This document shows, one piece after another, positions 10,500 through 28,204 of a stretch of DNA of 64,000 nt. The stretch comes from Daejeonella sp. GTDB taxonomy: Bacteria; Bacteroidota; Bacteroidia; Sphingobacteriales; Sphingobacteriaceae. Location of the stretch: positions 62,001-126,000 of the forward strand of contig NZ_JAUXXZ010000023.1 in the NCBI RefSeq assembly GCF_030684675.1, in the 5' to 3' direction. The first letter of the stretch is position 1. Each line of letters begins with the position of its first letter. Both the position numbers and the translations under genes were made by a program. Under the pieces are notes generated by a model. It did no database searches and was not told the DNA's origin. It saw nothing but the letters and a program-made list of their open reading frames with translations.

Positions 10500-10573
10500 T
10501 GCGCCCACCTGGGCTCGAACCAGGGACCAAAAGATTATGAGTCTTCTACTCTAACCAACTGAGCTATGGGCGC
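10500..10573 (-). tRNA. tRNA-Met (anticodon CAU)
   Basis: The minus strand folds into a 74-nt cloverleaf: acceptor GCGCCCA/TGGGCGC, D-arm GCTC...GAGT, anticodon stem GAAGA/TCTTT with loop CTCATAA, and T-arm CCTGG-TTCGAGC-CCAGG, with discriminator A. The anticodon is CAU. CCA is not encoded. An elongator tRNA-Met is most likely; a tRNA-Ile2 whose C34 is modified to lysidine has the same anticodon and cannot be fully excluded by eye. A terminator follows directly. Confidence 0.9.
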
Positions 10574-16953: not shown

Positions 16954-17160
16954 ATGCTCGAATTTAAATTAGAAGGAGAATTCATTCCGATGATCCAGTT
17001 ACTGAAGGCGATGAACCAGGTCCCAAGCGGTGGAGAAGCCCAAATTGTGGTGGAAGCAGGATTAGTGAAATATAACGGAGAGGTGGATCTACGCAAACGC
17101 CTGAAAGTTAGACGTGGCGATATCGTTGAATTCAAAGGACAAAAAATAAAAGTTACATGA
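16954..17160 (+). CDS. RNA-binding S4-domain protein (YbcJ-like)
   Basis: This 68-residue protein is almost entirely one S4 domain: EFIPMIQLLKAMNQVPSGGEA, then VVEAGLVKYNGEVDLRKRLKVRRGDIVEF, the alpha-L fold that binds structured RNA. Length matches E. coli YbcJ (70). It overlaps aroB by 4 bp (ATGA), so the two are translationally coupled. This S4 family is thought to touch ribosomal or other structured RNA; the target is unknown. No link to shikimate synthesis is implied beyond co-transcription. Confidence 0.88.
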   Translation: MLEFKLEGEFIPMIQLLKAMNQVPSGGEAQIVVEAGLVKYNGEVDLRKRLKVRRGDIVEFKGQKIKVT

Positions 17161-18221
17161 AACCCATTGAGAGTATAAGCTATTCCGTTTTTTTCGAGAA
17201 CAGTCTGCAGGAATTATCTGCATTTTTAAATAAAAAGAAATACAGCAAGGTTTTTGTTCTGGTTGACAGCAATACAGAAATTCATTGTCTGCCGGCATTA
17301 CAGGAAGCTTTAGGATCCATTGAATTTGATCTGATTGAAGTTACACCTGGTGAGGAAAATAAGAATATTGATTTTTGTATCGGGATCTGGAGAATGCTCC
17401 TTGACTTTGGCGCCGACAGAAACAGCATCATGATCAACCTTGGCGGTGGTGTGATTACTGACATGGGTGGTTTTGCAGCTTCTACATTCAAGCGGGGTAT
17501 TGATTTTGTACAGGTACCTACTACCCTATTATCCCAGGTTGATGCTTCCGTCGGTGGCAAAACCGGAGTGGATATGGAGAGTGTAAAAAACATCATTGGC
17601 ACCTTTACTCAGCCTAAGGCGGTCTATATCCAAACCCAGTTCCTGAAGACATTAAGTGACAGGGAACTCCGTTCTGGATATGCTGAAGTAATTAAACACG
17701 GACTCATTTACGATGCCTCCCTGTTCGAAGAGCTGAAGGGAATTGTTCCAAAAGAACTGAGTGATGAAATTATCTACCGTTCCATTGAAATTAAAAATGA
17801 AGTAGTCATTGCAGATCCTTTTGAAAAAGGGTTACGAAAAATTCTGAATTACGGTCATACCATTGGGCATGCTGTCGAAAGTTACTCTTTGAAACATGAT
17901 AAAAGTCCATTATTGCATGGAGAAGCGATTGCAATTGGTTTCATTTGCGAAGCTTTCCTTTCTGAAAAAAGAAATGGCCTTAAAAAAGAGGAGCTTTCTG
18001 AAATTGTAAAAACCATTCAGAATACTTACCCTGCTTATAAATTAAATAAAAGCATTTATCCTGACCTGCTTGATATCATTAAGAATGATAAAAAGAACAA
18101 TGCCGGGCAGATCAGCTTCTCCTTGTTAAGTGAAATTGGTAAATGCGGATACGACATTTATTGCACCGAAGAAGAGATATTTGAGAGTTTAGATTTTTAC
18201 ATGACTTGCGAAATCACCTGA
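17157..18221 (+). CDS. aroB: 3-dehydroquinate synthase
   Basis: The 354-residue enzyme converts DAHP to 3-dehydroquinate (second shikimate step) using NAD+ and a divalent metal. The sequence shows the NAD site (VTPGEENKN, INLGGGVITDMGGFAAS), VPTTLLSQVDASVGGKTGVD, RSGYAEVIKHGLI and metal-ligand regions NYGHTIGHAVES and LHGEAIAIGF. The final residues MTCEIT and the stop codon lie inside the first unit of the repeat starting at 18203, so the native C-terminus may have been altered by repeat insertion. It is upstream of, and separated by repeats from, the attenuated pheA operon. Confidence 0.96.
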   Translation: MKPIESISYSVFFENSLQELSAFLNKKKYSKVFVLVDSNTEIHCLPALQEALGSIEFDLIEVTPGEENKNIDFCIGIWRMLLDFGADRNSIMINLGGGVITDMGGFAASTFKRGIDFVQVPTTLLSQVDASVGGKTGVDMESVKNIIGTFTQPKAVYIQTQFLKTLSDRELRSGYAEVIKHGLIYDASLFEELKGIVPKELSDEIIYRSIEIKNEVVIADPFEKGLRKILNYGHTIGHAVESYSLKHDKSPLLHGEAIAIGFICEAFLSEKRNGLKKEELSEIVKTIQNTYPAYKLNKSIYPDLLDIIKNDKKNNAGQISFSLLSEIGKCGYDIYCTEEEIFESLDFYMTCEIT

Positions 18222-18492
18222 CAGAGCGGAAAGTAGATTTCGTCAGTCTGAACTTCCCCGACTTGCGAAATCACCTAACCGAGCGGAAAGTGATTTCGTC
18301 AGTCGCAAATCTAAATAGGGCGACTGACGAATTTGTCTTGCATGATGCCCAGGTAAATTCGTAAGTCTGAACTTCCCCGACTTGCGAAATCACCTAACCG
18401 AGCGGAAAGTAGATTTCGTCAGTCGCAAATCTAAATAGGGCGACTGACGAATTTGTCTTGCATGATGCCCAGGTAAATTCGTAAGTCTGAAC
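18203..18492. repeat. Tandem paired-hairpin (REP/BIME-like) repeats, about 120-bp unit
   Basis: Two nearly identical units (18260-18378 and 18379-18492) follow a shortened first unit (18203-18259). Each full unit holds two hairpins: GACTTGCGAAATC with GATTTCGTCAGTC, and GACTGACGAATTT with AAATTCGTAAGTC, so all four arms are versions of GACTkrCGAAwTy. The copies differ by one 1-bp indel (AGTGATTTC against AGTAGATTTC). The array begins within the last codons of aroB and ends about 60 bp before the pheA promoter. Paired palindromes of this kind resemble BIMEs moved by REP-associated tyrosine transposases; no such gene is in the window. Confidence 0.85.
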
Positions 18493-18555: not shown

Positions 18556-18585
18556 TTGACAGAATTAAATTTTGTGCTACATTTG
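18556..18585 (+). promoter_or_regulatory. Promoter of the pheA leader/operon
   Basis: TTG at 18556-18558 and TACATTTG at 18578-18585, separated by 19 bp, match the Bacteroidota consensus TTTG-N19-TAnnTTTG closely. Transcription would start near 18590, a few bases before the leader-peptide ATG at 18598. Confidence 0.7.
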
Positions 18586-18597
18586 GAAAACATAAGG

Positions 18598-18669
18598 ATG
18601 AAAAATTCAACTACATATTACTTCGCTTATTTTTACTATCACGGTAAGAGCGGGGAAAATATGCAATAG
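18598..18669 (+). CDS. pheL: pheA operon leader peptide (Tyr/Phe-rich attenuator peptide)
   Basis: This 23-codon ORF begins MKNSTTYYFAYFYYHGK and ends NMQ. Codons 7-14 contain five Tyr and two Phe among eight, a density expected of a leader peptide that stalls the ribosome when charged tRNA-Tyr or tRNA-Phe is scarce. It starts 12 bp after a good promoter and is followed by an intrinsic terminator 22 nt beyond its stop codon, then by pheA. The role is analogous to PheL of E. coli, although the sequence is not homologous and Tyr dominates, suggesting joint sensing of both amino acids. Confidence 0.85.
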   Translation: MKNSTTYYFAYFYYHGKSGENMQ

Positions 18670-18702
18670 ATCTTAATATAGAAATTAGCAAAAAGTCCCT
18701 GC
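18650..18702 (+). promoter_or_regulatory. Predicted antiterminator pairing of the pheA attenuator
   Basis: GCGGGGA (18650-18656), inside the leader codons for Ser-Gly-Glu just after the aromatic run, can pair over all seven bases (one G-U) with TCCCTGC (18696-18702), which is the 5' arm of the terminator. A ribosome stalled at the Tyr/Phe codons would leave 18650-18656 free and block the terminator. A ribosome reaching the TAG at 18667 would cover it and allow termination. Confidence 0.7.
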
Positions 18703-18724
18703 CCAAAAGCAGGGACTTTTTTTA
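18691..18724 (+). terminator. Attenuator terminator before pheA
   Basis: A perfect stem AAAAGTCCCTGC (18691-18702) and GCAGGGACTTTT (18709-18720), with a 6-nt loop CCAAAA and a 3' run of seven T, lies 12 bp upstream of the pheA ATG. It can only regulate entry into the pheA operon, since no gene other than the leader precedes it on this transcript. Confidence 0.9.
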
Positions 18725-18735
18725 TTTAAAATCAA

Positions 18736-19563
18736 ATGCAAAAAAAACGAGTAGCAATTCAGGGAATCCGGGCATCATTTCACGAAGAGGCAGCATTTAA
18801 ATTCTTCGGGACTGATATCGAAACCATTGAATGCGAATCATTCAAAAAAACCTGTGAGGTTTTGAAGAATAAACAGGCAGATTACGTGGTCATGGCTATT
18901 GAAAATTCAATTGCCGGAAGTCTTCTGCCTAACTATACCCTGCTCAGAGAATACAACTTCTCCATAGTCGGTGAGGTCTATCTCGCGATACAACTTCATT
19001 TGCTTGCGCTTCCTGGAGTAAAATTCGAAGATGTAAAGTATGTTCAGTCACATCCGATCGCCATTCGTCAATGCAGTGATTTCTTCGAAGAATTTCCTCA
19101 TTTACAAGTAGTTGAAAGCAGTGATACTGCGGCCTGTGCGAAGAAAATCAGAGAAGAAAACCTGACTGATACCGTAGCTATTGCAAATCTTCTTGCTGCT
19201 AAACTATATGATCTGGAAGTCATGGAAAGAAGGATTGAATCTAATAAGAAAAATTTTACCCGATTCCTGATCCTTGCAAATAAACCACTCGAAAATGTTG
19301 AAGTCAATAAAGCTTCCTTTAGTTTCCAGGTAGGGAACTCCGTTGGATCGCTGGCCGATGTGCTGAATATCTTTGCTTCCAAAAAGATAAATCTGAGCAA
19401 AATCCAGTCAATGCCCGTACTTGGAAAACGAAATGAATATAATTTTTACGTTGATATAGAATGGAAAAATCAGGCCGATTATGATTCTGCGATCCGTCAG
19501 GTTTTAAAACATACCATCAACTTCACAATTATGGGTGAGTACTTAAAAAACGATAAAGTTTAA
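18736..19563 (+). CDS. pheA: Prephenate dehydratase
   Basis: The 275-residue protein converts prephenate to phenylpyruvate. The N-terminal catalytic half shows VAIQGIRASFHEEAA, VMAIENSIAGSLLPNY, VQSHPIAIRQC and the key NFTRFLIL (TRF) motif near residue 178. The C-terminal ACT domain begins at SFSFQVGNSVGSLADVL (usually GxLxxVL) and contains NLSKIQSMPV, the usual phenylalanine-binding ESRP site being replaced by QSMP. The chorismate mutase activity is not fused here but on the next gene product. Expression is predicted to be under Tyr/Phe attenuation by the leader at 18598. Confidence 0.95.
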   Translation: MQKKRVAIQGIRASFHEEAAFKFFGTDIETIECESFKKTCEVLKNKQADYVVMAIENSIAGSLLPNYTLLREYNFSIVGEVYLAIQLHLLALPGVKFEDVKYVQSHPIAIRQCSDFFEEFPHLQVVESSDTAACAKKIREENLTDTVAIANLLAAKLYDLEVMERRIESNKKNFTRFLILANKPLENVEVNKASFSFQVGNSVGSLADVLNIFASKKINLSKIQSMPVLGKRNEYNFYVDIEWKNQADYDSAIRQVLKHTINFTIMGEYLKNDKV

Positions 19564-19639: not shown

Positions 19640-20743
19640 ATGAAATTAAATTTAAAATTACAGCCCTTAAGTACCTGGGTAAAAACAAAAAACGAGCCTT
19701 TATTAATTGCAGGGCCATGCAGTGCTGAAACTGAAGATCAGCTGATGGCTACCGCACATTTACTGGCAAAAACAGGAAAGGTTTCTGTTTTAAGAGCTGG
19801 AATCTGGAAACCGCGTACCCGTCCCGGAGAGTTTGAAGGTATTGGAAGTATTGGCTTAACCTGGTTAAAAAGAGCCAAGGAAGAAACAGGCTTACCTACT
19901 GCAGTAGAAGTAGCAAACGCAAAACATGTAGAAGAAGCCCTGGCAGCAGGAGTTGATATACTTTGGGTGGGTGCACGTTCAACGGTAAATCCATTTACAG
20001 TACAGGAAATTGCCGATGCCCTTAAAGGTGTAGATATTCCGGTGATGGTTAAAAATCCGGTTAATCCTGACCTTCAGTTATGGATAGGTGCATTGGAACG
20101 TTTCAATAATGCTGGTATCACAAAGCTTGCGGCTATTCACAGAGGATTCTCTTCTTTTGAAAAAACCGCGTTCAGAAATGAACCGATGTGGGAACTGGCC
20201 ATTCAGCTAAAAACTTTATGTCCTGAACTTCCAATCATCAATGACCCTAGCCATATTTGTGGAAACCGTGAATTGATTCAATACGTTGCCCAAAAAGCAC
20301 TTGATCTGGATATGCAGGGATTAATGATCGAGTCTCACCTTGACCCTTCTGTAGCATGGACTGATGCAAAACAACAGTTAACTCCTGCTGCATTATCAGA
20401 ATTAATGGAGCTTCTTACACTGCGTAAGCCGGAAAGTAAAGACAAAGAGTTTACTGATAAACTGGCTGATCTGCGTACCAGTATTGATAAAATTGATGAT
20501 CAGATCATTCAGAAAATAGCCGAAAGAATGCAGGTAGTTCAAAAAATCGGTGAATTCAAACGTGATAATGGAGTAACTATCCTTCAGGTAAACCGCTGGG
20601 ATCAGATCATGAACAAACGCAGTGCATTTGCAAAGGCTTTAAAGCTGGATCTTAACTTTACAGGTAAACTTCTGGAATTAATCCACAGCGAATCTATCCG
20701 CAAGCAAACTGAAATCATGAACGATAAAGTGAATGTTGAATAA
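19640..20743 (+). CDS. Bifunctional DAHP synthase / chorismate mutase
   Basis: The 367-residue protein has an N-terminal type I-beta, KDO8P-like DAHP synthase (LLIAGPCSAET, LRAGIWKPRTRPGEFEGIG, AVEVANAKHVEEAL, ILWVGARSTVNPF, MVKNPVNPDLQLWIGALER, IHRGFSS, NDPSHICGNRE) and a C-terminal AroQ-type chorismate mutase of about 90 residues (LRTSIDKIDDQIIQKIAERMQVVQKIGEFKRDNGV). It condenses PEP with erythrose-4-phosphate to start the shikimate pathway and also makes prephenate for the pheA product. The fusion usually allows the mutase domain to mediate feedback control. Confidence 0.94.
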   Translation: MKLNLKLQPLSTWVKTKNEPLLIAGPCSAETEDQLMATAHLLAKTGKVSVLRAGIWKPRTRPGEFEGIGSIGLTWLKRAKEETGLPTAVEVANAKHVEEALAAGVDILWVGARSTVNPFTVQEIADALKGVDIPVMVKNPVNPDLQLWIGALERFNNAGITKLAAIHRGFSSFEKTAFRNEPMWELAIQLKTLCPELPIINDPSHICGNRELIQYVAQKALDLDMQGLMIESHLDPSVAWTDAKQQLTPAALSELMELLTLRKPESKDKEFTDKLADLRTSIDKIDDQIIQKIAERMQVVQKIGEFKRDNGVTILQVNRWDQIMNKRSAFAKALKLDLNFTGKLLELIHSESIRKQTEIMNDKVNVE

Positions 20744-20745
20744 CA

Positions 20746-21990
20746 ATGAGTTCAGCAAGCATAAAAATATCAGCAGCAAATAAAAAACTAGACTGCACCA
20801 TACCTCTGACCGGATCAAAAAGCGAGTGTAACCGCGCTTTGATCATGCAGGCATTGAGTGATGGTGCGGTCCAGGTAGAGAATATATCTGAAGCTGCTGA
20901 TACTGTTACGTTAAACAATATCCTCCGAGATAAGGCACAAAAAATAGTTGATATCGGTCCGGCAGGTACTGCCATGCGCTTTTTAACTGCTTTTTACTCC
21001 CTACAGGCTGGTGAAGTGATTTTAACCGGGTCGGAGCGCATGAAACAGCGACCTATCGGGATTCTGGTTGATGCTTTAAGAACGCTCGGTGCTGATATTC
21101 AATATGCGGAAAAAGAAGGATTCCCTCCATTAAAAATCAGGGGTTCGCTTCAGCAGAAAACGAATCAAGTGAGTATAAAAGGCAATATCAGTAGTCAGTA
21201 TATTTCTGCCCTATTGCTTATTGCCCCAAAACTTGAACAAGGTTTGAATCTTGTGATTGAGGGGGAATTAACCTCAAAACCATATGTTCAGATGACCCTT
21301 GCAATGATGGAACAAGCTGGCATCAGACATACCTGGAGTGATAATGTGATCAGCATTGCAAGGCAGCCTTTCAATAAGTCGGTAATTAATGTGGAACCCG
21401 ACTGGAGTGCAGCTTCTTATTGGTATGCTATTGCGGCCTTATCTGAAGAAGCCCGTCTTTTCCTACCGGGATTGAATGGATATAGTCTCCAGGGAGACAG
21501 TATGATTACTGAGATTATGGCAAACTTTGGCATAAGCTCACAGTTCAAAGATGGTGGTGTCTATTTATTCAAGGAAGCAAAGAAATTGGAGCGAAAGATC
21601 TTTGATTTTAAGGAATGTCCGGATCTGGCACAGACTGTAATTGTTTGTTGTGCAGCACTGGGACATGATGCTACCTTCACCGGATTGGAGACTTTAAAAA
21701 TTAAGGAAACCGACCGGGTCAATGCACTTCAGACTGAACTGGCTAAGATCGGAGTAAAGCTGATTGAAAAGAATCAAACTTATAAACTGGATTGCTCAGG
21801 ACTAGATCTGAATAAAAAAATTCAGATAGCAACTTACGATGATCATAGAATGGCTATGGCCTTTGCACCACTTGCATTAGTTATGCCGGAGCTCGAAATT
21901 GAAGATCATCTGGTTGTTGAAAAATCATATCCGGATTTTTGGAAACATCTGGAAATAGCAGGATTCAATTTAAGGAGTATTGAGAAGTGA
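20746..21990 (+). CDS. aroA: 3-phosphoshikimate 1-carboxyvinyltransferase (EPSP synthase)
   Basis: The 414-residue enzyme joins shikimate-3-phosphate and PEP. Visible signatures are PLTGSKSECNRALIMQAL, DIGPAGTAMRFLTAF, LTGSERMKQRPIG, GNISSQYISALLLIAP, EPDWSAASYWYA, LKIKETDRVNALQTEL and TYDDHRMAMAFAPLAL. The PEP-site NAGTAxR motif reads PAGTAMR here, a modest deviation seen in divergent Bacteroidota enzymes. It starts 2 bp after the DAHP synthase stop, indicating tight co-translation. The protein is shorter and more divergent than E. coli AroA (427). Confidence 0.94.
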   Translation: MSSASIKISAANKKLDCTIPLTGSKSECNRALIMQALSDGAVQVENISEAADTVTLNNILRDKAQKIVDIGPAGTAMRFLTAFYSLQAGEVILTGSERMKQRPIGILVDALRTLGADIQYAEKEGFPPLKIRGSLQQKTNQVSIKGNISSQYISALLLIAPKLEQGLNLVIEGELTSKPYVQMTLAMMEQAGIRHTWSDNVISIARQPFNKSVINVEPDWSAASYWYAIAALSEEARLFLPGLNGYSLQGDSMITEIMANFGISSQFKDGGVYLFKEAKKLERKIFDFKECPDLAQTVIVCCAALGHDATFTGLETLKIKETDRVNALQTELAKIGVKLIEKNQTYKLDCSGLDLNKKIQIATYDDHRMAMAFAPLALVMPELEIEDHLVVEKSYPDFWKHLEIAGFNLRSIEK

Positions 21991-22116: not shown

Positions 22117-23220
22117 ATGGCAGGCAATTCATTCGGTCAACTGTTCCGCATAACAACTTTCGGAGAATCACATGGTGAGGCTATTGGGGTGATTATCGAT
22201 GGCTGTCCTTCTAATTTGGTGGTCGACATGGATTTCATCCAGTCTGAGCTCGATAAGCGTAAACCGGGACAATCAAAGATTACAACCCAGCGCAAGGAAA
22301 GTGATACAGTACAGATCCTTTCAGGAGTATTTGAAGGCAAAACCACCGGCACTCCTATTGCTATGATCATCCCGAATGAAGATCAGCGTTCAAAAGATTA
22401 TTCGCATATCAAAGATGCCTATCGTCCCTCACATGCAGATTATACTTACGATGCCAAATACGGTCATCGGGATCACCGCGGTGGTGGAAGATCATCTGCA
22501 AGAGAAACAGCAGCAAGGGTAGCCGCAGGAGCAATCGCTAAACTTTTATTACAACAATCCGGAATCGAAATATTTGCACATGTATCATCAGCAGGTACCA
22601 TCGAAGCTCCCCTGCTTTCAATAAATTCGATACCAGAATTGCTTGAGATCAGGGAGAGTAATATTGTACGTTGTGCCGATCCGGCTACCGCCAATCAGAT
22701 GATTGAACTGATCGATGGGGTCAGAAAAGAAGGAGATACGATCGGTGGTAAAATTTCATGCCTGGTTAAAAACTGTCCCGTTGGATTGGGAGAGCCTGTT
22801 TTTGACAAACTGCATGCCGATTTAGGTAAGGCGATGTTAAGTATCAATGCCGTTCATGGCTTTGATTATGGATCGGGGTTTGCAGGTTCAGAAATGAGAG
22901 GTTCTGAGCATAATGATCTTTTTGTAGCCCCTTCAGAAGGACAGGAAAACAGTAATTTCCGTACTCTGACTAACTATTCGGGCGGAATTCAGGGTGGGAT
23001 ATCAAACGGAATGGATATTACCTTCAGGGTGGCATTCAAACCGGTAGCAACCATCATGCAAAATCAGGCCAGCCTCGATTCTGCAGGTAATGCAGCAAAT
23101 GTTCAGGGAAAGGGCAGGCATGATCCATGTGTTGTGCCCCGCGCGGTAGCAATTATTGAAGCTATGGCAGCACTGGTACTGGCTGATCATTTATTGAGGA
23201 ATAGGGTAATCAGGCTTTAG
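22117..23220 (+). CDS. aroC: Chorismate synthase
   Basis: The 367-residue enzyme converts EPSP to chorismate with reduced FMN. It shows the family signatures [57 protein letters not shown]-type core (positions about 106-145), [13 protein letters not shown], and [23 protein letters not shown]. Length is typical. The 126-bp gap before it contains simple-sequence repeats, so it may have its own promoter, although it remains in line with the pheA-aroA block. Confidence 0.97.
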
Positions 23221-27835: not shown

Positions 27836-28204
27836 GGGGCCGACCGGAATTGACAGGATGGAGGCAGGTATGTAAGCATGCAGCGCATTGTGAGTAGTAG
27901 CGCTTAAATCTGAACTTTCAAACCACAATTGGCGAAAATAACTACGCCTTAGCTGCTTAATTTAGAATTAAGTAAGCTTTTGTTCCGTCAGATTCTGTTC
28001 TGTAATCTGACATCAGGAGCATCGAACAACAGGACTGGCCAGGGTTTAATGATGTGATAATCCGGTAAGACAAGACATCTACGGAAGACGGTACAGGTAA
28101 GCGGTTGACCTTCCCCTTCCCGACAATTAAACAACAGCTAAGCATGTAGAAAGCGTAACATGTCCCATGTTTGGACGAGGGTTCGAATCCCTCCGGCTCC
28201 ACCA
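27836..28204 (+). ncRNA. ssrA: tmRNA (transfer-messenger RNA)
   Basis: The 369-nt RNA rescues stalled ribosomes by trans-translation. Its 5' end GGGGCCG pairs with 3' CGGCTCC to form a tRNA-Ala-like acceptor stem, followed by discriminator A and an encoded CCA. The T-arm GAGGGTTCGAATCCCTC is intact. The tag reading frame starts with GGC at 27931 and encodes GENNYALAA then TAA (27958-27960), the typical Bacteroidota degradation tag. A terminator follows 8 bp later. SmpB is not in the window. Confidence 0.97.

Follow-up and report, generated by a model that had tools for sequence, protein, structure and literature searches.

What is a 23-codon open reading frame crowded with tyrosine and phenylalanine codons doing directly upstream of pheA? 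We investigated this question in a 64,000-nucleotide stretch of DNA, hereafter the window (G000:C7:62001-126000), whose closest named relatives include several Daejeonella (Sphingobacteriaceae). The original prediction had read the site as a ribosome-coupled attenuator, and our analysis supports this reading; every feature it named is present and is conserved in related genomes. We consider it very probable that the element is a ribosome-mediated transcription attenuator reading the supply of charged Tyr- and Phe-tRNA. The features of the locus are the following.

18556-18585, + strand: sigma-A type promoter (Bacteroidota), TTG-N19-TAcaTTTG, from direct reading.
18598-18669, + strand: leader peptide ORF of 23 codons, MKNSTTYYFAYFYYHGKSGENMQ, from direct reading and conserved in relatives.
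18614-18663, + strand: regions 1 and 2, forming the 1:2 stem between the Tyr/Phe codon region and the antiterminator strand, from folding (-14.4 kcal/mol).
18650-18656, + strand: region 2, the antiterminator 5' strand GCGGGGA, from sequence, pairing conservation and folding.
18690-18723, + strand: intrinsic terminator, a 13-bp stem (18690-18702/18709-18721) with U-run (-20.2 kcal/mol).
18696-18702, + strand: region 3 core, the antiterminator 3' strand TCCCTGC, also in the terminator 5' arm, from sequence, alignment and folding.
18736-19563, + strand: pheA, the first structural gene, encoding a prephenate dehydratase that lacks a chorismate mutase domain (PRK11898).
19640-20743, + strand: second gene, a fusion of DAHP synthase with chorismate mutase.
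20746-21990, + strand: aroA, EPSP synthase (TIGR01356, 299.6 bits, above cut-off).

The leader ORF runs from the ATG at 18598 to the stop codon at 18667-18669, and direct reading confirmed both its predicted length and the predicted cluster, YYFAYFYY at 18616-18639, with five Tyr and two Phe in eight codons. It is the sole case with at least six aromatic codons in eight among the 946 ATG ORFs of 10-40 codons in the window, and 60 Markov-shuffled windows yielded 2 ORFs with at least seven in eight among 39,797. Such an aromatic leader ORF is very unlikely to occur by chance. The ORF is short, translatable and rich in codons for the operon's end product.

The predicted promoter, TTG-N19-TAnnTTTG, was also found on direct reading (TTG at 18556-18558, a 19-nt spacer, and TAcaTTTG at 18578-18585), and all elements lie, as claimed, inside 18556-18735, directly before pheA, which starts at 18736. 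The pattern by itself is not rare (34 occurrences in 60 Markov-shuffled windows, one strand each) and, by itself, is weak evidence. The position of this putative promoter is kept in relatives: a TAnnTTTG box lies 5' of 109/118 family leaders, and a TTG stands at a spacing of 18-20 nt in 103/118. With the box set at -12 to -5, as it is placed in PMC9723704, the predicted transcription start falls at about 18590, giving a 5' UTR of 8 nt in the window and a median of 13 nt in the family. A Shine-Dalgarno-like motif was detected by a simple pattern test in only 2 of the 118 leaders. The leader ATG is predicted to lie some 8-14 nt after the transcript start and to have no Shine-Dalgarno sequence in front of it. 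Bacteroidota ribosomes mostly ignore Shine-Dalgarno sequences, and attenuators of this sort are thinly documented in this phylum.

A comparative search revealed that the leader ORF and its pairings are conserved in relatives. PheA was recognisable in 39 of 60 relatives, and all 32 family members among these carry, upstream of it, a short ORF in which Tyr/Phe (and often Trp) codons cluster; in two larger sets, which share some genomes, pheA is preceded by an aromatic leader in 118/119 family genomes examined and in 80/80 named relatives. In the aligned leaders, insertions and deletions that fall in the codon cluster come in multiples of three nucleotides. Leader length ranges from 14 to 30 codons, and the C-terminal part varies freely with changes of tail frame; in 16-codon leaders (e.g., MNINNTYYFAYFYYPQ in G003) the stop comes from the conserved AGTAAGAGC, read there in a different frame, which argues that the RNA is kept, not the peptide tail.

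We built a covariance model from 30 leaders; at E <= 0.001 it had matches in 59 of the 395 phylum genomes searched. Among the 41 matches inspected outside the window genome, nearly all of those with an aromatic leader lie directly before pheA, and these leaders occur in six families of the class, namely the window's own and five others. Weak matches elsewhere in the window's own genome (E 0.002 and above) contained no aromatic leaders. One aromatic leader, MKTLFAAYFYFFYFIEKVR (L063, in G372), precedes DAHP synthase, not pheA, indicating that the element need not be tied to pheA; another (L081) precedes phenylalanine hydroxylase.

Folding of 18590-18735 (-36.7 kcal/mol, z = -5.3 against shuffles) revealed competing 1:2, 2:3 and 3:4 structures, whose local energies (-14.4, -15.9 for the 2:3 segment, and -20.2 kcal/mol, respectively) describe balanced alternatives in this model. 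The original prediction had listed a perfect terminator and a seven-base antiterminator pairing of 18650-18656 with 18696-18702, and both hold: the terminator stem has 13/13 pairs, with the U-run extending to 18723, and one of the seven antiterminator pairs is G-U. The 1:2 stem is a further element, absent from that list. The intrinsic terminator lies between the leader ORF and the first structural gene, and the 2:3 antiterminator and the 1:2 stem are mutually exclusive.

These pairings exceed expectation both in the window and across relatives. The 2:3 score of the window was reached in 2% of trials with the antiterminator strand shuffled, and 2:3 pairing exceeded region 2 shuffles at p<0.05 in 83% of 111 leaders. 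In the alignment of 30 leaders, 89% of the cells of the 2:3 helix were paired versus 28-55% when slid by 1-3 columns, and the 1:2 and 3:4 helices jointly reached 95.1% versus 32-51% when slid; the aligned 1:2 stems were paired in 88.8% and 98.7% of cells. The terminator helix was paired in 97% of cells, with 5/11 pairs changed on both sides. The aligned sequences are related, so that counts of changed cells overstate independent events, and the 12 double changes at a single 2:3 pair largely go back to one event inherited within the window's genus.

To examine the switch, we masked the RNA that a ribosome would cover and folded the sequence through the last base of region 3. The mean 2:3 pairing probability was 0.87 with the A site at the aromatic codons and 0.02 at the stop codon; by this calculation, a ribosome finishing the leader would block region 2 and with it the antiterminator, whereas one stalled on the cluster would leave region 2 free. 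The antiterminator was also predicted with the ribosome on codons 1-6, and the 2:3 probability without a ribosome was 0.86, so the equilibrium model separates finished from unfinished translation rather than Tyr/Phe codons from earlier ones. Once region 4 was included, the terminator was always thermodynamically favoured over 2:3, and folding order therefore decides the outcome, as it does in classical attenuators.

From these elements we infer ribosome stalling, read-through and a response to Tyr and Phe, which would proceed as follows. RNA polymerase would start about 8 nt before the leader ATG, with a ribosome close behind. When Tyr and Phe are ample, the ribosome would pass the cluster at 18616-18639, reach the stop at 18667 and cover region 2, leaving region 3 to pair with region 4; the terminator would then form and transcription would end near 18720. 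A shortage of either amino acid would stall the ribosome on the cluster, keeping region 1 out of the 1:2 stem and region 2 free, and region 2 would pair with region 3 before region 4 is made. The terminator would then be absent, and pheA, the DAHP synthase-chorismate mutase gene and aroA would be transcribed.

Two readings would dispense with ribosome regulation or with attenuation altogether. A fixed terminator after a short gene, imposing a constant partial stop, would agree with the terminator being the most stable single hairpin (-20.2 kcal/mol), but it leaves unexplained the aromatic codons, the conserved 2:3 and 1:2 pairings, and the conservation of region 2 across different reading frames, and we regard it as highly improbable. 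The ORF might instead encode a functional small protein, a reading that could draw on its own promoter and terminator and on the conserved aromatic core. We consider this extremely improbable, since length (14-30 codons) and C-terminal part vary freely, the frames of the tail change, and the ORF immediately precedes pheA or, in one case (L063), DAHP synthase.

For the ribosome-mediated attenuator, sensing of both Tyr and Phe had been proposed, and this proposal is supported by the retention of both codons in all relatives; Trp codons also occur in many relatives' leaders. The excess of Tyr over Phe is no contradiction, because the DAHP synthase-chorismate mutase encoded after pheA serves both amino acids, and a mixed leader fits an operon that also makes this enzyme. 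Sensing of Tyr alone or nearly so, with the Phe codons incidental, would suit the window, where Tyr accounts for 5/7 aromatic codons, and the 69 family genomes without canonical TyrA, where the mean Tyr share is 0.61, a majority on average. We consider it unlikely: every leader retains Phe codons, which on average form the majority where canonical TyrA is present (Tyr share 0.42), the leaders of G021 and G453 contain 2 Tyr and 7-8 Phe, and stalling at either codon type frees region 2 in the folding calculation.

The difference in leader Tyr share with canonical TyrA (0.42) versus without (0.61; Mann-Whitney p 4e-15) is a correlation only, confounded by kinship, for which we claim no cause. It has counterexamples in G556, which has a canonical TyrA yet a Tyr-rich leader, and in G021 and G453, which have the divergent enzyme yet Phe-rich leaders. 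In the window's genome, no canonical TyrA (PF02153) was found above threshold, and the single weak match was a 419-aa prephenate dehydrogenase-like protein outside the window (G000:C7:8181-9437; L088:1429-2688). This protein occurs in 95/161 family genomes and never alongside canonical TyrA (54 genomes). Its discovery led us to drop the idea that the genome has no Tyr-making dehydrogenase and draws all Tyr from Phe, so that Tyr codons dominate. The 8 genomes with PheA but neither dehydrogenase all have a biopterin-dependent aromatic amino acid hydroxylase; the aromatic amino acid hydroxylase gene of the window's own genome was not found to have a Tyr leader. A wider reading, which we regard as possible but doubtful, is that these are class-wide, uncatalogued mixed aromatic attenuators, translated from about 8-14 nt after the transcript start without Shine-Dalgarno sequences, and with a Tyr:Phe:Trp mix that evolves with pathway wiring and is Tyr-rich where canonical TyrA is replaced by the divergent prephenate dehydrogenase-like protein or where Tyr comes only from Phe via phenylalanine hydroxylase.

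The pheA product matched PRK11898 at E 2.7e-55 and 187.5 bits, under the model cut-off of 219; aroA begins 2 nt past the DAHP synthase gene, aroC follows at 22117, 126 nt past aroA, and aroB lies at 17157, upstream of the leader. The gene after pheA encodes DAHP synthase-chorismate mutase in all 43 family loci examined, and in other families it resembles an aminotransferase in nine loci, by inspection of sequence. G050, G047 and G037 carry tyrA on the same strand as pheA, some 1.2-1.3 kb past it. At 18202-18492, in the interval separating aroB from the leader, are tandem repeats of about 120 nt that have inverted-repeat arms; they are missing in the closest relative (L002), and the insertion alters the last aroB codons. 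The window also contains a tmRNA (27836-28204, + strand) and a tRNA (10500-10573, - strand).

The element resembles the E. coli pheL-pheA attenuator (RF01859 Phe_leader) in placing a short aromatic leader peptide before pheA and in combining 1:2, 2:3 and 3:4 alternatives with an intrinsic terminator. E. coli PheL contains Phe codons and is not known to contain Tyr codons, whereas Tyr and Phe are mixed here, Trp is present in many relatives, and initiation occurs without a Shine-Dalgarno sequence. RF01859 scored 31.1 bits against the window (E 0.004 in an 801-base search), under its gathering score of 55, and none of 4227 Rfam families matched over the leader at gathering threshold in the window and 20 related loci. 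Earlier comparative surveys of attenuation reportedly also mention Bacteroidetes. For Flavobacterium psychrophilum, of the same phylum, a study whose main text names neither phenylalanine nor tryptophan reports strong indications that leader-peptide attenuation acts ahead of operons for amino-acid biosynthesis (PMC9723704). The Bacteroid-trp motif (RF01692), a listed cis-regulatory RNA of Bacteroidetes (PMC2864571), had no match in the window at gathering threshold, and its kinship lies only in the phylum and, judging from its name, in trp genes. Upstream ORFs with notable Phe and Tyr have been shown at shikimate-metabolism genes (PMC6429828, Fig. 6b) in five genomes, none of them from Bacteroidota. 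We found no description of this pheA leader element in a literature search of main texts. The mechanism is known from E. coli pheL/pheA, and the element is almost certainly an uncatalogued, class-wide example of it, absent from Rfam.

Other leaders also emerged. Tyr-rich leader ORFs (MKNLNNTYYYYPILTRRIGQ, MNFTTAIYYYYPILSLRVES and MKTNRIYTIYMYTFYHRWRAR in L215, L216 and L220) with terminators precede phenylalanine 4-hydroxylase genes, within 260 nt upstream of position 1501, and suggest Tyr-controlled attenuation of a Tyr-making hydroxylase. Thr/Ile leaders with terminators (e.g., MIFNTSIITTIIITTGINQRG; L076, G032:C2:604583-604713, and L077, G190:C1:644721-644851), reminiscent of E. coli thrL, precede an aspartokinase-type gene, and His-rich leader ORFs with terminators (L064 and L066) precede a hisG-like gene, identified by inspection.

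These Thr/Ile, His and Tyr leaders, recovered with the same model, point to broad use of attenuation in Bacteroidota. The pheA leader itself provides a concrete, widely conserved attenuator for a phylum that mostly ignores Shine-Dalgarno sequences, and can be converted at once into a covariance model. Furthermore, its natural mixtures of Tyr, Phe and Trp offer a direct test of which codons are actually read and how fast that reading evolves.
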